12,281 nt of DNA from Lachnospiraceae bacterium (GTDB lineage: Bacteria; Bacillota_A; Clostridia; Lachnospirales; Lachnospiraceae): positions 1-12,281 of the forward strand of contig JAGACI010000251.1 of assembly GCA_017614185.1 (NCBI GenBank). Reading direction: 5' to 3'. Every line of letters starts with the position of its first letter. The stretch's first letter is position 1. The notes below the pieces were generated by a model. That model ran no database searches, was not told the origin of the DNA, and saw only the letters and a list, made by a program, of their open reading frames with translations. Of this stretch, positions 3,421-9,759 are shown piece by piece. The position numbers were made by a program, and so were the translations under genes.

Positions 3421-3493
3421 AGCTGCTGACGGGAATCGGACCCGTGACCTCCGCACTACCAATGCGACGCTCTACCGACTGAGCCACAGCAGC
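3421..3493 (-). tRNA. tRNA-Thr (anticodon GGU)
   Basis: A 73-nt minus-strand cloverleaf. Acceptor arms GCTGCTG/CAGCAGC pair fully (plus-strand 3487-3493 and 3422-3428), with discriminator U at 3421. The D arm has GCTC/GAGC around AGTCGGTA. The anticodon stem TCGCA/TGCGG has one G-U pair. The anticodon loop TTGGTAG gives GGU (plus-strand 3458-3460), reading ACC and ACU threonine codons. The T stem ACGGG/CCCGT encloses loop TCCGATT. CCA is not encoded (the 3' end continues U-TAC), so it must be added by tRNA nucleotidyltransferase. Position 55 is C rather than the near-universal U. It is transcribed from its own promoter at 3524-3552 and ends in the bidirectional terminator. Confidence 0.96.
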
Positions 3494-3900: not shown

Positions 3901-6600
3901 TTAGTTTGTGGGCTGTGCGGCAGCGGCGGCTGCAGCGGCAGCTTCTGCTGCGGCCTGCATTTCTGCGAGCTGCTGCTGAATTATAACATCGTGGTCAGGA
4001 CTTTCCATGAACTCCCAAGTATGAGGACAGTAGTGGGTTCCGATAGGAACTTCCTCGCCCGTCTCGGGATCAATCGTGGTAGTAGGTACAATATCAACCT
4101 GTTTAAGCTTTCCTGTTTCATCAACACCGGCACTTCCGGGCTGAAGAACTGCGGGCTCAACAGGAATCATCTCGATTACACCTTCAACTTTGAAAGGACA
4201 GCACTCTGTTGCAGGAAGATTACAGTATGCACAGTATTCACCTGCGTAGTGAACATCACATGTCTCTGTGGGTACCGTGCCTTCCGCAAAGTACTCTGTG
4301 ATAAGCGTTCCGTCACAAAGTCCTGGAATCGGAAGCTTACCTGATCTTGAACAAACAGTAGCCTGAACAACATCTGCGGGCTTCTCTGAGAAACCGATAT
4401 CAGGAAGATCCTGATGAACCTGTGACATAACCATGTTCCAAAGTTTCTTGTGGAGGGTCTTGTTCTCACCCTTCATGGGTTCGTTGTTATCAAAACCTTC
4501 CCAAATAGCACATGTATAGTAAGGAGTAAATCCTGCAAACCATACGTCACGGTACTCATTTGATGTACCTGTTTTACCGGCGATGGACATTCCGGGGAAC
4601 TTACAAGGATTACCTGTACCCTGGTTAACTACGTCCTTCATAGCGCTGGTAAGAAGGAATGCAGTTGATTCCTTTAATACTCTTCTTGAGGTATCGCCTG
4701 TGTTATCAAGGATAACATTTCCTTCTCTGTCGAGAACCTTGGTATAAAGCTTAGGAGCGTTATAAACACCATCGTTTGCGATAGAAGCGTAAGCTGCGGT
4801 CATCTCGTAACAGGTTACACCCTTTGTAAGACCGCCGAGTGTAAGTGACTGAACGATATCGGACTTGATTTCACCGTTTACTTCAACGTTGTCAACAAGA
4901 GTAGTGAAACCGAAGTTAAGAAGATAATCATATCCAAGCTGGGGAGTGATTACCGTAAGGTTCTTAACCGCAACAATGTTGACCGAGTTCTGAATACCGA
5001 CTCTGACAGATGTAAGTCCGTTAAAGGACATATCGTAGTTATTAACAGGTGTTCCGTCGTTATAGTTAAACGGAGCATCGTTTCTTACTGTTGCAAGTGT
5101 AAGAAGTCCTGTATCAATACCGGGTGCATAGGTTGCAAGAACCTTGAATGTTGAACCGGGTGAACGGGTGGAAGAAGTAGCTCTGTTAAGAGTACGGCTT
5201 CCTTCTTTCTTACCTCGACCGCCGACCATTGCAAGTACGTAACCGGTCTTCTGATCCATGAGAACCATGCTTATCTGGGGCTGAGGAGTAACTGAAATTC
5301 TCTCTGCCTCGAAATCACCGCCTGTTTCGGCAAGCATTAAGTCTTTGTACTCTGCCGCAAGTGCTTCGGCTTCCTCTTTTGAAGGGAAGAGCATGTCGAA
5401 GTTACGGTCAACGTTTTCTTTGTAATACTTCTGAAGCATCTCGTTACTGTAGTTCTGAGTTGTTCCGTCAGGAAGAGTAATCGAGAGCTGATATGACAAA
5501 AGCCATTGAGTATTGTCAGGATAGTTCTCCTCGTTTGTGAGAACGTCATCCATGATTTTCTGAATACCTGAATCCTGGGTTGAATATACTCTCAAACCGC
5601 CGCTGTAAAGGAGAGACCATGCGGTGTTCTCACTGTAACCTGCATTAAGTAAATCCTTGTAAAGCTGGTCTGTAAGCGCATCTACAAAGTAGGTTGTAGT
5701 CTCGCTCTTTTCAACTATCTGGTTGGCTGCCTGAATACGAGAGTATACGTCATCATCACAGGCTGCCTTGTATTCGTCTTCGCTGATATAACCTTCGGAA
5801 AGCATTGCCTTAAGTACATCCTTACGACGCTTGTCATTCTCCTCGGGATGCGAGATGGGATTGTACTTTGAAGGGTTCTTGGTGATACCTGCGATACAAG
5901 CACACTCGGATATGGTTAATTCCGTTACATCCTTATTAAAATATCTTTGAGCCGCAGCCTGAACACCAAGTGTTCTCTGGCCGAGGTTGATTGTATTAAG
6001 GTATCTTAAAAGGATTTCGTCCTTACTAAGCATCTTTGTGATTTCAAGGGCCAAGTACTGCTCCTGAATCTTACGCTTAATCTGATCTGAGAGACCATCC
6101 TCCTCCATCCAGCCGGTGAACACAGTGTTCTTAAGAAGCTGCTGTGTGATGGTGGAAGCACCCTGTTTGGTTTTAAATCCTGAGGCTACGAACTTATAAC
6201 CTGCACGGATGATACCGGAGATATCAATACCGTTGTGCTCGTAGAAGTTCTTATCCTCGATTGCGATAAACGCATGCTTGATGTTGTCTGTAACCTTGTC
6301 CTGACTGATGGGGATACGGTTGGAGTTCTCTGATACGAGCTTCGCAATCTGATTGCCCTCTGAGTCATAGACAAATGTGGAATATCCACTGGGAGCAACA
6401 TCATTGGGGTCCGGTACGGGAGCTACATCTAGAACCGCTTTAAACATTCCGATTCCGGCTGCTGCGCCCATAACGCCCAAGCCAATGATGGCTATAATCA
6501 ATAATTCTACTGCAAAGAGTCCGAATTTATTTCCCCAACGGGGACCGACAGCCTGAAGTCTTGCCTGTCTCTTCTTGACTCCTCTTTTTCCATAATTCAA
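3901..6600 (-). CDS. Class A penicillin-binding protein (PBP1A-type bifunctional glycosyltransferase/transpeptidase)
   Basis: Membrane-anchored enzyme that polymerises glycan strands and cross-links peptidoglycan outside the cell. Residues are counted from the TTG at 6600 (899 aa). A short basic cytoplasmic tail precedes a transmembrane helix at about 27-50. The GT51 domain follows: catalytic Glu115 in EDKNFYEH, QGASTITQQ (146-154), RKIQEQYLA and ILLRYLNTINLG, and GVQAAAQRYF. The transpeptidase domain has serine motif STFK (Ser483, Lys486), SVN (539-541) and KTGT (676-679). The C-terminus has a Cys-rich segment (spacing C-x8-C-x2-C-x6-CC at 781-801) and ends in a Gln/Ala tail with nine consecutive Ala. 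An alternative GTG start at 6609 is in frame, but it falls inside the SD AGAGGTG. That SD sits 6 nt from the TTG, so TTG is preferred. First gene of an operon with the 96-aa protein. Function is secure; the start is likely. Confidence 0.95.
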   Translation of the reverse strand: MNYGKRGVKKRQARLQAVGPRWGNKFGLFAVELLIIAIIGLGVMGAAAGIGMFKAVLDVAPVPDPNDVAPSGYSTFVYDSEGNQIAKLVSENSNRIPISQDKVTDNIKHAFIAIEDKNFYEHNGIDISGIIRAGYKFVASGFKTKQGASTITQQLLKNTVFTGWMEEDGLSDQIKRKIQEQYLALEITKMLSKDEILLRYLNTINLGQRTLGVQAAAQRYFNKDVTELTISECACIAGITKNPSKYNPISHPEENDKRRKDVLKAMLSEGYISEDEYKAACDDDVYSRIQAANQIVEKSETTTYFVDALTDQLYKDLLNAGYSENTAWSLLYSGGLRVYSTQDSGIQKIMDDVLTNEENYPDNTQWLLSYQLSITLPDGTTQNYSNEMLQKYYKENVDRNFDMLFPSKEEAEALAAEYKDLMLAETGGDFEAERISVTPQPQISMVLMDQKTGYVLAMVGGRGKKEGSRTLNRATSSTRSPGSTFKVLATYAPGIDTGLLTLATVRNDAPFNYNDGTPVNNYDMSFNGLTSVRVGIQNSVNIVAVKNLTVITPQLGYDYLLNFGFTTLVDNVEVNGEIKSDIVQSLTLGGLTKGVTCYEMTAAYASIANDGVYNAPKLYTKVLDREGNVILDNTGDTSRRVLKESTAFLLTSAMKDVVNQGTGNPCKFPGMSIAGKTGTSNEYRDVWFAGFTPYYTCAIWEGFDNNEPMKGENKTLHKKLWNMVMSQVHQDLPDIGFSEKPADVVQATVCSRSGKLPIPGLCDGTLITEYFAEGTVPTETCDVHYAGEYCAYCNLPATECCPFKVEGVIEMIPVEPAVLQPGSAGVDETGKLKQVDIVPTTTIDPETGEEVPIGTHYCPHTWEFMESPDHDVIIQQQLAEMQAAAEAAAAAAAAAQPTN

Positions 6601-6637
6601 AACATTCACCTCTTTAAAACATAACTATACGAAGTAC

Positions 6638-6666
6638 ATTATATCAAAACATTTCCATTTTATAAA
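6638..6666 (-). promoter_or_regulatory. Extended -10 promoter for the PBP operon
   Basis: On the minus strand TTTATA (6666-6661), a 17-bp spacer, then TATAAT (6643-6638) preceded by TGA, i.e. an extended -10 (TGnTATAAT). The predicted start is near 6631, about 30 nt before the TTG start codon. It lies back-to-back with the yigZ promoter. Confidence 0.75.
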
Positions 6667-6703
6667 GAATTTTGCGGAATCTTAATGAAAGATTAATAGA
6701 TTA

Positions 6704-6712
6704 TGCTATTAT
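6704..6712 (+). promoter_or_regulatory. Extended -10 promoter for the yigZ-family gene
   Basis: TGCTATTAT (6704-6712) fits TGn plus a -10 hexamer. A weak -35 (TTAATG, 6682-6687) is 19 bp upstream. Transcription would begin near 6719, about 12 nt before the SD AAGGAGA at 6731. Confidence 0.55.
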
Positions 6713-6746
6713 AAAAAAGGTAGTTTTAAAAAGGAGACCGGACGGC

Positions 6747-7409
6747 ATGGAAACATCGCCTAACAAGGAGTTCGCGGTTGTAACGGAAGGCGGCGTCGGA
6801 GAAGTGGTTGAGAAGAAATCACGCTTCATCGCAACTATTCGCCCCGTATCAAGCGAAGAGGAAGCCACGGCTTTCATAGACGAGATGAAAAAGAAATATT
6901 GGGACGCCAGACACAACTGTTCTGCGTTCATAGTCGGAGAGCACGGTGAGACAACCAGATGCTCTGATGACGGTGAACCATCCGGTACTGCAGGCAGGCC
7001 GATGCTTGAGGTGCTTAGCGGCATGAACCTTAAGAACGTGGCTGTAGTAGTCACAAGGTATTTCGGCGGAGTTCTGCTTGGAACGGGCGGACTTGTAAGA
7101 GCTTACCAGGCGGCTGTCAAAGAGGGCCTTAACAACTCAAAGGTCGGTAAAATGAGCCCCGGAGTTGTCTATCGAATAGGCACCGATTATAACGGCCTTG
7201 GCAAAATAAGATATGTCCTTTCTCAGGAAGGAATCGAGCCTGACGACATTCAATATAAGGAAGATGTTGAGATTGTTTTTACCGCATGGGAAGACAATGA
7301 GAAAAAGGTTCTCAAATCGATTACCGAGTGTACCTCGGGAAGGGCGAAAATAAGCGAAGAAAACAGAGGTTTTTTTCTCAAAAAAATTGACAATGAAAAC
7401 CTCGTTTAG
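6747..7409 (+). CDS. yigZ: YigZ / IMPACT-family protein
   Basis: Cytoplasmic protein of 220 aa related to E. coli YigZ, B. subtilis YvyE and the N-terminal domain family of eukaryotic IMPACT. Its biochemical role in bacteria is not firmly established; a link to translation or stress regulation is suggested for the family. Hallmarks are RHNC (55-58), SDDGEPSGTAGRPML (73-87), VVVTRYFGG (100-108) and GTGGLVRAY (112-120). The region from about 140 corresponds to the smaller C-terminal domain (DUF1949-like). A longer in-frame reading starts at 6672, but the ATG at 6747 is preferred: it has SD AAGGAGA (6731-6737), gives the normal family length, and the upstream extension covers the promoter. Divergent from the PBP gene. 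Its last seven codons contain the -35 of the mgtE promoter. Confidence 0.92.
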   Translation: METSPNKEFAVVTEGGVGEVVEKKSRFIATIRPVSSEEEATAFIDEMKKKYWDARHNCSAFIVGEHGETTRCSDDGEPSGTAGRPMLEVLSGMNLKNVAVVVTRYFGGVLLGTGGLVRAYQAAVKEGLNNSKVGKMSPGVVYRIGTDYNGLGKIRYVLSQEGIEPDDIQYKEDVEIVFTAWEDNEKKVLKSITECTSGRAKISEENRGFFLKKIDNENLV

Positions 7410-7415
7410 TATATT
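7387..7415 (+). promoter_or_regulatory. Sigma-70-type promoter for mgtE, overlapping the end of yigZ
   Basis: Perfect TTGACA (7387-7392), a 17-bp spacer that ends on the yigZ stop codon, then TATATT (7410-7415). The predicted start is near 7422, so the transcript would open almost directly with the hairpin at 7424-7446. Confidence 0.8.
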
Positions 7416-7421
7416 TTTATA

Positions 7422-7557
7422 TGGGCCTTTTGACAGCTAAAAGGCCTTAAAGCATTTCGAAAGGTGGTGGTTTTATGAAGAGTCGAAGTACGAACAATAC
7501 TGAAAATCCTCTCCCACATATATGGGATAAAACCACTGTAACCAAAGGAGAAATGCT
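7422..7557 (+). promoter_or_regulatory. Structured mgtE 5' leader, candidate cis-regulatory RNA
   Basis: About 136 nt between the predicted start and the mgtE ATG. Visible pairings: a 5' hairpin GGCCTTTT/AAAAGGCC (7424-7431/7439-7446, 7-nt loop); an outer stem AGCATTTC/GAAATGCT (7451-7458/7550-7557) whose 3' arm abuts the mgtE ATG; a nested 10-bp stem GTGGTTTTAT/ATAAAACCAC (7467-7476/7527-7536); and inside it AGAG/CTCT (7479-7482/7509-7512), AGTA/TACT (7487-7490/7498-7501) and CCCA/TGGG (7513-7516/7523-7526). TCTCC (7510-7514) could instead pair with GGAGA (7547-7551) in the mgtE SD. No ykoK (M-box) consensus segment is recognisable. The 5' hairpin lacks a following T-run, so it is more likely leader structure than the yigZ terminator. 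A regulatory role is inferred. Confidence 0.6.
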
Positions 7558-7579
7558 ATGGATGAGATCAAGGTATTAG
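7475..7579 (+). CDS. Candidate 34-aa leader peptide (uORF) upstream of mgtE
   Basis: Short ORF inside the mgtE leader. The ATG at 7475 follows a purine/GT-rich SD-like AAAGGTGG (7460-7467) at 7-nt spacing. The peptide begins MKSRSTNNTENPLPHIWDK and ends in RSRY. It runs past the mgtE ATG in another frame and stops at 7579, overlapping mgtE by 22 nt. Codons 10-14 (Glu-Asn-Pro-Leu-Pro, 7502-7516) cover the leader segment that could pair with the mgtE SD. Pro- and acid-containing leader peptides of Mg2+ transporter genes are known in enterobacteria (MgtL), which makes a stalling or coupling role plausible but unproven here. It could also be a chance ORF, being too short for statistical support. 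Confidence 0.45.
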   Translation: MKSRSTNNTENPLPHIWDKTTVTKGEMLWMRSRY

Positions 7580-8907
7580 ACGAGATCTTAGAGCTTCTAA
7601 AGACCAAGCAGTACACTGCGCTTCGCCAGAGACTCTCAGAGATTAATCATGCGGATATCGCTGATATCCTCGAGGAGATGGAGGAGGATGACAGACTCAA
7701 GGTCTTCAGAATTCTGCCCAAAGATCTTGCTGCTGACGTCTTCTCATACTTGGAGGTTGACAATCAGCAGACAATCATTACTTCCTTGTCAGATAAGGAA
7801 GCATCCAACATCATCAACAACCTGATGGCCGATGATGCTACAGACCTTTTGGAGGAGATGCCCGCAAGTGTAGTTAAAAGACTCCTTGCCGGTGCCAACG
7901 CCGCAACGAGAAGAGACATCAACCACCTGTTAAGATACCCCGATCAGTCGGCCGGTAGCTTAATGACAGTGGAGTACGTTGACTTAAAGGAAGGTCAGAC
8001 AGTCTCGGAAGCACTTGCCAGACTCAGAAAGAACGGCAGGGACAGTGAGACAATTGAGACAATGTACGTCCTCGACCCCAGCAGAAAGCTGGTGGGTATC
8101 GTCACCTTAAGGGATTTGCTTTTTGCCGACCCTGATTCAATAATCGGTGACATCATGGAGGAGAACGTTATCTCGGTAACGACTCTTACGGACCAGGAGG
8201 AAGTTGCCTCCCAGTTCAAAAAATACGACTTTACCGCAATGCCAGTTGTCGATAACGAGAACAGACTTGTCGGTATCATAACAGTCGATGATATCGTGGA
8301 TATCATGGAAGAAGAGACCACAGAGGATATGGAGAAGATGGCAGCTATCATGCCTTCCGACAAGCCATATATCCGTACCGGTATCTTTGAGACGTTCAAG
8401 AAGAGAATTCCCTGGCTGCTTCTTCTCATGGTTTCCGCAACATTTACAGGCAAGATTATTCAGTCCTTTGAAGATGCTCTCGCAGCATGTGCAGTACTTA
8501 CAGCCTTTATTCCCATGCTTATGGATACGGGCGGTAACGCAGGCGGACAGGCATCCGTTACCATCATTCGTGGACTTTCACTTGAAGAGATTGAATATAA
8601 AGATACTTTAAGGATTATCTGGAAAGAGATAAGAGTTGCGGTACTTTGCGGAGTGACCCTTGCGGTTGCCAATTTTGCAAAGCTTATGCTCTTTGACAGA
8701 GTGGGACTTATGGTTTCACTGGTGGTATGCCTTACACTTGTTTTGGTTGTAAGCATGGCCAAGGTTGTGGGATGTACCCTTCCGATATTGGCTAAAAAAC
8801 TGGGATTTGACCCGGCAGTAATGGCAAGCCCGTTTATCACTACAATTGTGGATGCACTTTCACTGTTGGTTTATCTTAGAATAGCCACCAATCTTTTACA
8901 TCTGTAA
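7558..8907 (+). CDS. mgtE: Mg2+ transporter/channel MgtE
   Basis: 449-aa homodimeric inner-membrane Mg2+ channel, gated by cytosolic Mg2+. Domains in order: helical MgtE N domain (about 20-130, with repeated acidic motifs such as ILEEMEEDD and LLEEMPA); two CBS domains (about 136-195 and 201-256); a connecting helix; and a pore domain with five hydrophobic segments (about 285-305, 311-330, 356-378, 382-405, 423-446). The hallmark GGNAGGQ is at 325-331. An Asp at 432 in the last helix (TTIVDALSLL) matches the position of the selectivity Asp known in Thermus MgtE. Length is typical. The ATG at 7558 has a strong SD AAAGGAG (7544-7550). It has its own promoter and a long structured leader with a uORF, which points to Mg2+- or translation-dependent control. 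It is followed after 24 bp by a YhfC-like gene, probably co-transcribed. Confidence 0.97.
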   Translation: MDEIKVLDEILELLKTKQYTALRQRLSEINHADIADILEEMEEDDRLKVFRILPKDLAADVFSYLEVDNQQTIITSLSDKEASNIINNLMADDATDLLEEMPASVVKRLLAGANAATRRDINHLLRYPDQSAGSLMTVEYVDLKEGQTVSEALARLRKNGRDSETIETMYVLDPSRKLVGIVTLRDLLFADPDSIIGDIMEENVISVTTLTDQEEVASQFKKYDFTAMPVVDNENRLVGIITVDDIVDIMEEETTEDMEKMAAIMPSDKPYIRTGIFETFKKRIPWLLLLMVSATFTGKIIQSFEDALAACAVLTAFIPMLMDTGGNAGGQASVTIIRGLSLEEIEYKDTLRIIWKEIRVAVLCGVTLAVANFAKLMLFDRVGLMVSLVVCLTLVLVVSMAKVVGCTLPILAKKLGFDPAVMASPFITTIVDALSLLVYLRIATNLLHL

Positions 8908-8931
8908 ATTTGGAAACGAAAGTATTAATAT

Positions 8932-9759
8932 ATGGAAGAATTATTTAACACCTGGAAGTTGGGAGCCATGCTCCTCGATATTATCGTGGGCTTTGGGCTT
9001 CCGATTTCTATGATAATGATAATAAGAAAGAAATATCAGATAAGGTTTGCCGTAGGCATTATAGGTGTCGGAACCTATATCATCGTTAATTCCCTGCTTT
9101 GCGGAATCTTTGATGTACTTATTTACCAGCTTAAGCTTTCAGACTATCTTGAAGGCATTCCTTCGGCTGAGGCTGTTTTTTACGGAGTATTCCACGGACT
9201 TATCCAGTTTGCAGGCTACTACGTAGTGATGAGATTTTTTATGAGAGGCTATGAGCGCAAAGAGAATGCCCTCATGTTCGGTGTAGGTCTTTCGTTTATC
9301 GATTGCTTTTACTACAATGCGGTTGGCGGCTTTTCCAACTATATAACAGCTACCGAAGTCGGTGAGTGGGGAAGAGAGAGCTACCTTGGAAGATTCCCCG
9401 AAGACCAAAGGGAAATGGCGGAGTCAACGCTTAACCAGCTTTTGGATTTAACTGTTTCCGATATTGTCGGAAGCGTTATATTTATGATTCTTGAGATGGT
9501 ATTTATGATTGCGATTTCCATTCTGCTTTTTGAAGCCACGAAGAGAGTCGGTAAGAAGTATCTTTTGCCCACAATCGGTGCAGCCATCGTTGCCGTTAAT
9601 CTTATCATCTGCTTCAGAAGTGTTGAGAGGCTTTCGCAGGTTGCATATCTTGTTCTTATCGGAGTTGTTGCAGCACTCACAGGTTTTGGAGCCTACATTT
9701 TCTACACTGCCGATAAAGAGGAGATTAAAGGCAAAGGCGATTTTATAAAGAAGAAATAG
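8932..9759 (+). CDS. Polytopic membrane protein resembling the YhfC intramembrane metalloprotease family, ligand positions substituted
   Basis: 275-aa integral membrane protein with about seven hydrophobic segments and a basic C-terminus. The pattern GLIQFAGYYVVMRFF (89-103), FGVGLSFID (116-124) and an LEMVFMIAIS-like third helix resembles the layout I recall for YhfC/CPBP-like proteins: a Glu-Glu-x-Gly-Arg motif, a Gly-His-x-x-x-Glu motif and a late His helix. Here the corresponding residues appear to be Gln92-Phe93, Leu120 and Asp124, with no His in the third, so proteolytic activity is doubtful. A non-catalytic membrane role is possible. The family call rests on recalled motif spacing, not a search; it may be a different polytopic family. 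The SD is weak (GGAAACGAAAG, spacing long), 24 bp after mgtE, suggesting translation partly coupled to mgtE. A terminator follows. Confidence 0.6.
   Translation: MEELFNTWKLGAMLLDIIVGFGLPISMIMIIRKKYQIRFAVGIIGVGTYIIVNSLLCGIFDVLIYQLKLSDYLEGIPSAEAVFYGVFHGLIQFAGYYVVMRFFMRGYERKENALMFGVGLSFIDCFYYNAVGGFSNYITATEVGEWGRESYLGRFPEDQREMAESTLNQLLDLTVSDIVGSVIFMILEMVFMIAISILLFEATKRVGKKYLLPTIGAAIVAVNLIICFRSVERLSQVAYLVLIGVVAALTGFGAYIFYTADKEEIKGKGDFIKKK

Follow-up and report, generated by a model that had tools for sequence, protein, structure and literature searches.

In a 12,281 nt contig from a Lachnospiraceae bacterium (JAGACI010000251.1, analysed in full and hereafter termed the window), the Mg2+ channel gene mgtE is preceded by a short leader that combines a conserved RNA architecture with an upstream open reading frame (uORF), which, judging by the coding selection acting on it, is translated as a leader peptide. 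Two nested helices, P1 and P2, are conserved in Lachnospiraceae leaders, and the peptide contains a core of acidic and proline residues. The preferred reading, to which a probability of roughly 0.6 can be attached, is that this is an MgtL/MgtQ-like, Mg2+-dependent translation-abortion leader that controls mgtE translation in Lachnospiraceae. Ribosome destabilisation as a sensor of Mg2+, the principle of MgtL and MgtQ, is described from enterobacteria in the accessible portions of the literature. A leader of this kind would explain how Mg2+ uptake is controlled in Lachnospiraceae, which are major gut bacteria, where no M-box was found.

The features of the locus are collected in Table 1. The product of mgtE has MgtE_N, CBS and MgtE domains according to Pfam, and is 96% identical to that of the nearest genome found, Lachnospiraceae bacterium G11 (L001). 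The gene lies downstream of a UPF0029/DUF1949 gene, presumably yigZ-like, and its leader would be ~136 nt long if transcription starts near 7422, the position suggested by the placement of the promoter. An earlier note on this DNA had identified a near-consensus promoter at the end of yigZ, and this holds up well, with 11 of 12 matches and with hexamers identical in the two closest relatives (L001 and L002). The same note had described a 5' hairpin, an 8 bp outer stem reaching the mgtE ATG, a 10 bp inner stem and a 34-codon uORF starting at 7475, overlapping mgtE out of frame and including Glu-Asn-Pro-Leu-Pro codons; all of these were recovered where it had placed them. It had called the ribosome binding site of the uORF 'SD-like', and here the site stands while the wording is too cautious: AAAGGTGGT is a strong Shine-Dalgarno (SD) sequence. 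As with MgtL-type leader peptides, the gene that follows is for a Mg2+ transporter, and the short uORF ahead of it, with this strong SD, is judged from coding selection to be translated. The folding energy of the window leader is -43.3 kcal/mol, compared with -31.1 +/- 4.0 for shuffled sequences (z = -3.1; one of 200 shuffles as good). The 5' hairpin has 56-61% identity in L001 and L002, where the arms are still complementary by inspection of the alignment. An intrinsic terminator was considered as the platform of the window's leader and rejected, none being found in 6700-9200.

Table 1. Features of the mgtE locus in the window
Feature	Position	Strand	Comment
UPF0029/DUF1949 gene	6747-7409		Upstream neighbour of the mgtE leader
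Sigma-70-type promoter, TTGACA-17-TATATT	7387..7415	+	11/12 matches; overlaps end of yigZ-like gene
5' hairpin, 10 bp	7423..7447	+	Arms 7423-7432/7438-7447
P1 5' arm, AGCATTTC	7451..7458	+	8 bp outer helix
uORF Shine-Dalgarno, AAAGGTGGT	7460..7468	+	Inside most conserved block of the leader (alignments)
P2 5' arm, GTGGTTTTAT	7467..7476	+	10 bp inner helix; overlaps uORF SD and start codon
uORF/putative leader peptide, MKSRSTNNTENPLPHIWDKTTVTKGEMLWMRSRY	7475..7579	+	34 codons and stop; 22 nt out-of-frame overlap with mgtE
Acidic-Pro core codons, E10 N11 P12 L13 P14	7502..7516	+	
P2 3' arm, ATAAAACCAC	7527..7536	+	Starts 13 nt after first base of last core Pro codon
mgtE Shine-Dalgarno, AAAGGAG	7544..7550	+	
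P1 3' arm, GAAATGCT	7550..7557	+	Adjoins mgtE ATG at 7558
mgtE, Mg2+ channel	7558..8907	+	Pfam PF01769 (1.6e-37), PF03448 (3e-30), PF00571 (5.8e-22)

Leaders of this type were collected in two ways. Among 80 mgtE loci fetched by protein similarity, the leader is present at 52, which were chosen because a uORF longer than 20 codons comes after a pattern resembling an SD, with the core playing no part in the selection; one (L042) was missed by this pattern and added by eye. The recognised leader was not found at 28 of these 80 close mgtE loci. A covariance model built from 25 leaders recovers the leader in seven of eight genomes tried, with a single match in each except for a weak second match in a flagellar region (L088). 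Applied to 250 sampled genomes of the family under strict filters, which make the figure an undercount, the model has matches in 23, of which 18 are at mgtE, including every match with E < 0.003. Four of these 18 (L083, L089, L093 and L097) duplicate loci already fetched by similarity and 14 were added, giving, with the window and the 52, a total of 67 leaders after removal of duplicates. In the class sample, matches were found in 6 of 341 genomes, four of them at mgtE. Matches lacking mgtE (L088, L105, L107-L110, L113 and L114) were treated as false and dropped. Two loci appear to have suffered deletions of the leader: L038 (2896-3003) retains the promoter and 3' arms while missing the P1 5' arm, uORF SD and core, and L062 (427-472) is missing the interior of the uORF.

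Both the uORF and the nested stems of the earlier note proved to be conserved in these leaders. The frame of the uORF is open from its own ATG to that of mgtE in 64/64 leaders, three with insertions having been left out, as against 0/64 and 1/64 for the other two frames. In 14 disjoint pairs of near relatives, pN/pS is 0.37 in the uORF frame versus 1.35 and 1.47 out of frame, and differences at the three codon positions number 22, 25 and 50. The core, defined as [DE]x0-3P, occurs in frame at codons 6-16 in 67/67 leaders, which thus all have the early acidic and proline residues characteristic of MgtL, although 14 of the leaders come from covariance-model matches and the model includes core positions; the other forward frames have it in only 10 and 3 of the 67 and the reverse frames in 22, 9 and 13, while shuffled peptides give a mean of 31 and a maximum of 40. 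Examples include TENPLPHI in the window, TDNPLPAR, DNPLPGRS, SDPAPGRS, TDIPPHERS, SDVPGRS and NDDDLHPRS.

The uORF stops 16-91 nt inside mgtE in 64 of the 67 leaders, with both out-of-frame registers represented. In the remaining three (L072, L075 and L106) it ends upstream of mgtE, with inserted sequence separating the two, and only in L072, where the uORF ends 120 nt upstream, is it in frame with the gene; this same locus has a hairpin followed by a T-run between uORF and mgtE, perhaps reflecting a switch to transcription attenuation. Across the 67 leaders, the median distance from the start of the last core Pro codon to the P2 3' arm is 14 nt, with quartiles of 14-17 and extremes of -7 and 57, and it lies within 3 nt of 14 in 50 of them, a constancy that may partly reflect a scarcity of indels, as the distance from the uORF ATG to the Pro is also fairly constant (quartiles 36-42). 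A spacing of ~14 nt is roughly that of the front edge of a ribosome holding the codon in its P site, given the size of the ribosomal footprint. Where an Arg codon after the core Pro can be scored, in 41 of the 67 leaders, it is CGA (21) or CGG (18) in 39, with examples in L046 and L041; codons of this type also follow the core at L305:1232-1285, and the window's peptide is without such an Arg. CGA and CGG make up 4.2% and 13.7%, respectively, of Arg codons in the mgtE genes and are possibly slow.

Pairing in P1 and P2 is specific to each leader. When both P1 arms come from one leader, their pairing energy averages -10.5 kcal/mol, against -7.93 +/- 0.26 when arms are swapped among 53 leaders, and those of P2 at -14.4 against -11.6 +/- 0.20 for 67 leaders; neither value was reached in 5000 permutations, which leave the relatedness among leaders in place. 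Individually, 43 of the 53 P1 helices have p <= 0.05 against shuffled arms, as do 42 of the 67 P2 helices. When 25 leaders are aligned by sequence with MAFFT, 92.6% of cells are paired and covariation scores 0.186, compared with 0.131 in shuffles (0/500) and at most 0.082 in slid registers. Two-sided changes in this alignment affect three of 21 pairs, all in P1 and none in P2, a count reached by 47 of 500 shuffles and by the +1 and +2 slides. They affect 16 of 21 pairs, versus 7.6 in shuffles and 7-11 in slides, in an alignment of 61 matches, all fitted to the P1/P2 structure itself and some of them weak or doubtful.

The earlier note had also proposed that TCTCC, within the core codons, alternates between pairing in the leader and pairing with the mgtE SD, and this was not supported by comparison among leaders. 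Pairing of TCTCC with GGAGA is possible in the window (-7.6), and the core pairs with the mgtE SD at -6.74 compared with -5.86 in synonymous shuffles, yet just 3/64 leaders reach p <= 0.05 (mean rank 0.43), not clearly beyond the expectation for synonymous coding. Pairing of the core with the uORF SD, at -7.29, is weaker than in the shuffles (-8.47; 0/67 leaders). Neither comparison supports TCTCC as a selected anti-SD switch, and this candidate was set aside.

No Rfam family matches the window leader at gathering score, the only hits being two sub-threshold eukaryotic families with E values of 2 and 4.1. In agreement with the absence of an M-box (ykoK, RF00380) proposed beforehand, this riboswitch was not found in the window leader, at 20 leader-bearing loci, or in any of the 37 genomes searched from the close mgtE set, nearly all labelled Lachnospiraceae, of which 20 have the leader and 17 lack it, while the Bacillus subtilis and Lactococcus lactis controls were positive. 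M-boxes occur in Clostridia before mgtE, before corA and before genes for P-type ATPases. The accompanying remark that ykoK is the usual device in such bacteria needs qualifying, because peptides of the kind found in the window extend to many other clostridial mgtE genes, to CorA genes and to one P-type ATPase gene, often behind an M-box, so that the two devices can coexist. M-boxes are present in 31 of 148 class genomes and, counting by hand, a uORF led by an SD and bearing the core or an acidic residue 2 lies between aptamer and gene at 20 of 30 M-box loci read, two of which (L233 and L234) share the same peptide. The genes behind M-boxes include those for CorA, confirmed by Pfam in 7/7 tested, five of these with the uORF, as well as one for a P-type ATPase of putative Mg2+ specificity and two whose products have the MgtE_N and CBS domains. 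Among these loci (L205-L234), an M-box followed by an acidic-Pro uORF is seen ahead of mgtE, corA or a P-type ATPase gene in, for instance, L227, L228, L222 and L229. Such arrangements are candidates for two Mg2+ sensors in tandem, raising the question of why some genes have both.

Uptake genes elsewhere in the Clostridia have similar peptides. Ahead of mgtE genes whose products have 45-67% protein identity, SD-led uORFs encode MDYPDPLPCSKN, MDYDPLPIL, MDSGPLPNSY, MDTVPLPCF and MDNIPGRSS. The frequency of such peptides was compared between 88 class-level mgtE loci, which are the higher-scoring matches, lower-scoring ones lying outside the sample, and 69 TypA controls, from 69 of 148 genomes of the same sample. 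The former exclude two loci already counted (L115 and L116), as well as G370, which is a fragment, and G382, a second copy beside another; the latter exclude L235. By one fixed rule, uORFs with an acidic residue 2 occur at 38/88 mgtE loci and 0/69 controls (Fisher p = 4.5e-12), and those with the core at 34/88 and 0/69; a looser test, accepting an acidic residue at position 2 or 3, gives 42/88 and 4/69. Dinucleotide shuffles are the stricter control, since the upstream regions of TypA have fewer uORFs of any kind (15/69 loci versus 63/88), though shuffling also halves uORF number. Over 60 rounds with shuffled mgtE upstream sequences, the mean was 3.1 (maximum 7) for acidic residue 2 and 5.2 (maximum 11) for the core. 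On these two controls, chance uORFs were rejected as an explanation of the class-level counts. No uORF with an acidic residue 2 or core was found by the search rule at 39 of the 88 loci.

A P2-like arrangement, in which the SD and AUG of the uORF pair with downstream sequence (p <= 0.05), is found for 26 of 50 class-level uORFs, two starts being included at each of five loci, versus 2 of 69 TypA starts, and a terminator-like hairpin follows the uORF in 8 of 49 uORF-bearing loci. A second flavour of uORF, with an acidic residue 2 followed mostly by Gly/Ser runs and with no core Pro (such as MDAGGSSST and MESGGSSSG), occurs at L121, L148, L150, L163 and L166, and uORF-like peptides with a PKPEPEP[DE]PQP run lie upstream of mgtE at L190 and L191. 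The core is also present at 17 of 30 CorA genes examined, out of matches in 43 genomes, with several of these being the M-box loci again and two (L315 and L316) doubtful, in that they resemble the end of the upstream gene. When M-box neighbours are assigned by hand, 22 of the CorA genes have none, and the core or an acidic residue 2 is found at 12 of these, including the two doubtful cases; the peptides include MDTDPYPNRS, MDADPRACM, MDCDPGGSS and MSTDPYPNL. Peptides of this sort, such as MDADPGEK, MDCDPDSN and MDSGPLPN, are encoded ahead of CorA genes and of the gene for one P-type ATPase, and are similar to MgtL of E. coli.

One kind of peptide therefore accompanies more than one family of Mg2+ transporter, whether or not an M-box is present. 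Its occurrence at mgtE genes, at CorA genes and at the gene for a P-type ATPase would support a link between the peptide and Mg2+. The class-level peptides may be related to that of the window or convergent with it. The balance tips slightly towards a Clostridia-wide system of nascent-chain Mg2+ sensing, independent of MgtL and MgtQ, in which MDxDP, MDxGP and DNPLPGRS peptides, with their SD held in a helix, would control MgtE, CorA and P-type transporters through either a translational platform (overlapping uORF and P1) or a terminator. The peptides would often be paired with an M-box, and would act by themselves in groups that lack one, such as Lachnospiraceae. If this is true, the use of the same peptide logic with a different architecture across the Clostridia, and ahead of several families of transporter, would suggest that it is a general, repeatedly used means of reading Mg2+, and the dozens of natural variants would provide material for testing the rules of ribosome abortion at acidic-Pro sequences.

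Among known systems, the earlier note had drawn a parallel with MgtL, the leader peptide of enterobacterial mgtA, and this is well founded: the sequence of MgtL from Escherichia coli K-12 was confirmed and has early acidic and proline residues. According to the accessible text of PMC11282234, ribosome drop-off at its EPDP sequence at low Mg2+ raises mgtA expression. Like MgtL, and CorL of corA, the window has a short uORF with early acidic and Pro codons ahead of a Mg2+ transporter gene, and in MgtL the Arg codons CGA and CGG come after Pro-Leu-Pro, an arrangement shared with many Lachnospiraceae cores but not with that of the window. For E. coli, PMC11552253 describes a stem, predicted to exist when Mg2+ is high, that sequesters the SD of the uORF, in the manner of P2, which encloses that of the uORF in the 67 leaders. 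However, MgtL works by Rho-dependent termination, and its reading frame ends 140 nt before mgtA, whereas the window's uORF overlaps mgtE, in a short leader that leaves little room for termination of this type downstream. The window also differs in having a second helix over the mgtE start region and in its phylum and transporter, the gene being mgtE and the relatives Lachnospiraceae, rather than mgtA in Enterobacterales; the likeness is one of features rather than of demonstrated descent. The closest mechanism is that of MgtQ, an eight-residue uORF between Salmonella mgtC and mgtB, for which the available text of PMC8092293 describes a transporter ribosome binding site held in a stem and freed when acidic codons destabilise the ribosome, Asp2 and Glu5 being needed to free that of mgtB. 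P1 would play the equivalent part here, covering in the window only the last base of the mgtE SD and the bases from there to the ATG. MgtQ uses three alternative stems (1:2, 2:3 and 3:4), and an equivalent pairing was sought in the window's family and not supported. By analogy, the leader would work like MgtL and MgtQ without, as far as tested, being a member of either by descent.

Other uORFs and RNAs linked to mgtE can be set beside the window by description. A ribosome-protected uORF, described as a vcgB homologue, together with an M-box ahead of mgtE in Mycobacterium abscessus (PMC4974804, accessible text) provides a precedent both for a uORF at mgtE and for the tandem arrangement. At pe20 in M. 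tuberculosis, a conserved uORF (uORF2, Rv1805A) lies behind an M-box, encoding a mycobacteria-specific peptide with an invariant Pro7 and a proposed function for the product (PMC12810186, accessible text). The same portions of these two papers describe no acidic-Pro abortion for either uORF. The mgtE motif SRC-65-1 (Breaker group, 2024) is an RNA structure that includes both the SD and the AUG of mgtE, reported only from Thioalkalivibrio and as a riboswitch candidate, with no uORF mentioned in the accessible text of PMC11109978. No description of uORFs of the present kind at clostridial Mg2+ transporters was found in the open-licence text of PubMed Central that was searched.

We infer that the leader senses Mg2+, and likewise the sign of the response and the switch, which could operate as follows. 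P2 closes over the SD and AUG of the uORF itself and P1 over the start region of mgtE as far as its ATG, and ribosomes would load on the uORF co-transcriptionally; mgtE would depend on this loading because the P1 5' arm adjoins the uORF SD. With enough Mg2+, ribosomes would pass the core, cross the mgtE SD and stop within mgtE, and P1 would re-form between their passages, keeping mgtE translation low. When Mg2+ is short, ribosomes would pause or drop off at the core, the last Pro codon of which is usually ~14 nt before the P2 3' arm, such that ribosomes keep the start of the uORF, and with it the neighbouring 5' arm of P1, occupied without reaching the mgtE SD, and mgtE is translated. In other Clostridia, the related or convergent peptides found before MgtE and CorA genes, and before the gene of at least one P-type ATPase, would have different downstream platforms.

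Folding with the positions of ribosomes masked gives a measure of this switch. In 64 leaders, the median probability of the mgtE SD being unpaired is 0.40 when the RNA is free and 0.65 with ribosomes at both the uORF start and the core, and exceeds 0.5 in 22 and 48 leaders, respectively. A single ribosome barely changes the mgtE SD, with medians of 0.45 for the start alone (25 leaders above 0.5) and 0.40 for the core alone (22 leaders); release by one ribosome was consequently rejected, and the model needs two. In the window itself the effect runs the wrong way, from 0.79 free to 0.57 with two ribosomes. The coding capacity and structure of the leader are firm and the identity of the sensor occupies a middle position, with the switch the weakest step, because masked folding requires two ribosomes and fails for the window.

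Other readings account for parts of these data. The peptide might sense a different state of translation (charged tRNA-Pro or tRNA-Arg, EF-P, ABC-F or general slowing), with mgtE induced as a consequence; the Pro-rich core and the CGA or CGG Arg after it (39/41 scorable leaders) would suit this, as would tRNA-Pro control by mgtP and the action of EF-P and EfpL on MgtL, described in the accessible texts of PMC8092293 and PMC11611912, respectively. It is nevertheless unlikely, as the association with several families of Mg2+ transporter and with M-boxes points to Mg2+, and many of the class-level MDADP and MDCDP peptides have few Pro and no shared Arg. Less probable still is a constitutive coupling devoid of sensing, whereby the uORF does no more than feed ribosomes into mgtE: by translating across P1 they would expose the mgtE SD, and after terminating 16-91 nt within the gene they would reinitiate. 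A uORF overlapping a gene can also couple to it positively, and the conserved overlap (64/67) and the location of the mgtE start region within P1 are as such coupling would predict, but it leaves unexplained both the acidic-Pro core in 67/67 leaders and the similar peptides of other Clostridia, which stop before the gene begins.

The remaining alternatives concern what is selected in the leader. The conserved helices and the highly conserved GAAAGGTGGTGG block could belong to a new class of Mg2+-binding riboswitch in which the uORF is incidental; this is very doubtful in view of the strong selection at the protein level in a single frame, the identity of the conserved block as the uORF SD, and the alignments, which by inspection contain no conserved junction or aptamer-like core outside the coding and SD sequence. 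Only a slight chance attaches to the uORF product being a small protein with a function of its own, acting in trans on MgtE. Its N-terminal half is conserved, and a function of the product is preferred by the authors for the M. tuberculosis M-box uORF in the available part of PMC12810186, yet the C-terminal sequence tracks the pairing of the RNA and differs among clades in its frame relative to mgtE, and the peptide has no Pfam match.

Several other RNAs were encountered in the course of the Rfam searches. L053 has two TwoAYGGAY RNAs near mgtE, at 6579-6744 on the minus strand and 7176-7340 on the plus strand, and a skipping-rope RNA and a lysine riboswitch lie near mgtE in the relatives L068 (4971-5042) and L035 (7163-7314). 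The window itself contains a tRNA gene at 3421-3493 on the minus strand (Rfam RF00005, 66.1 bits).
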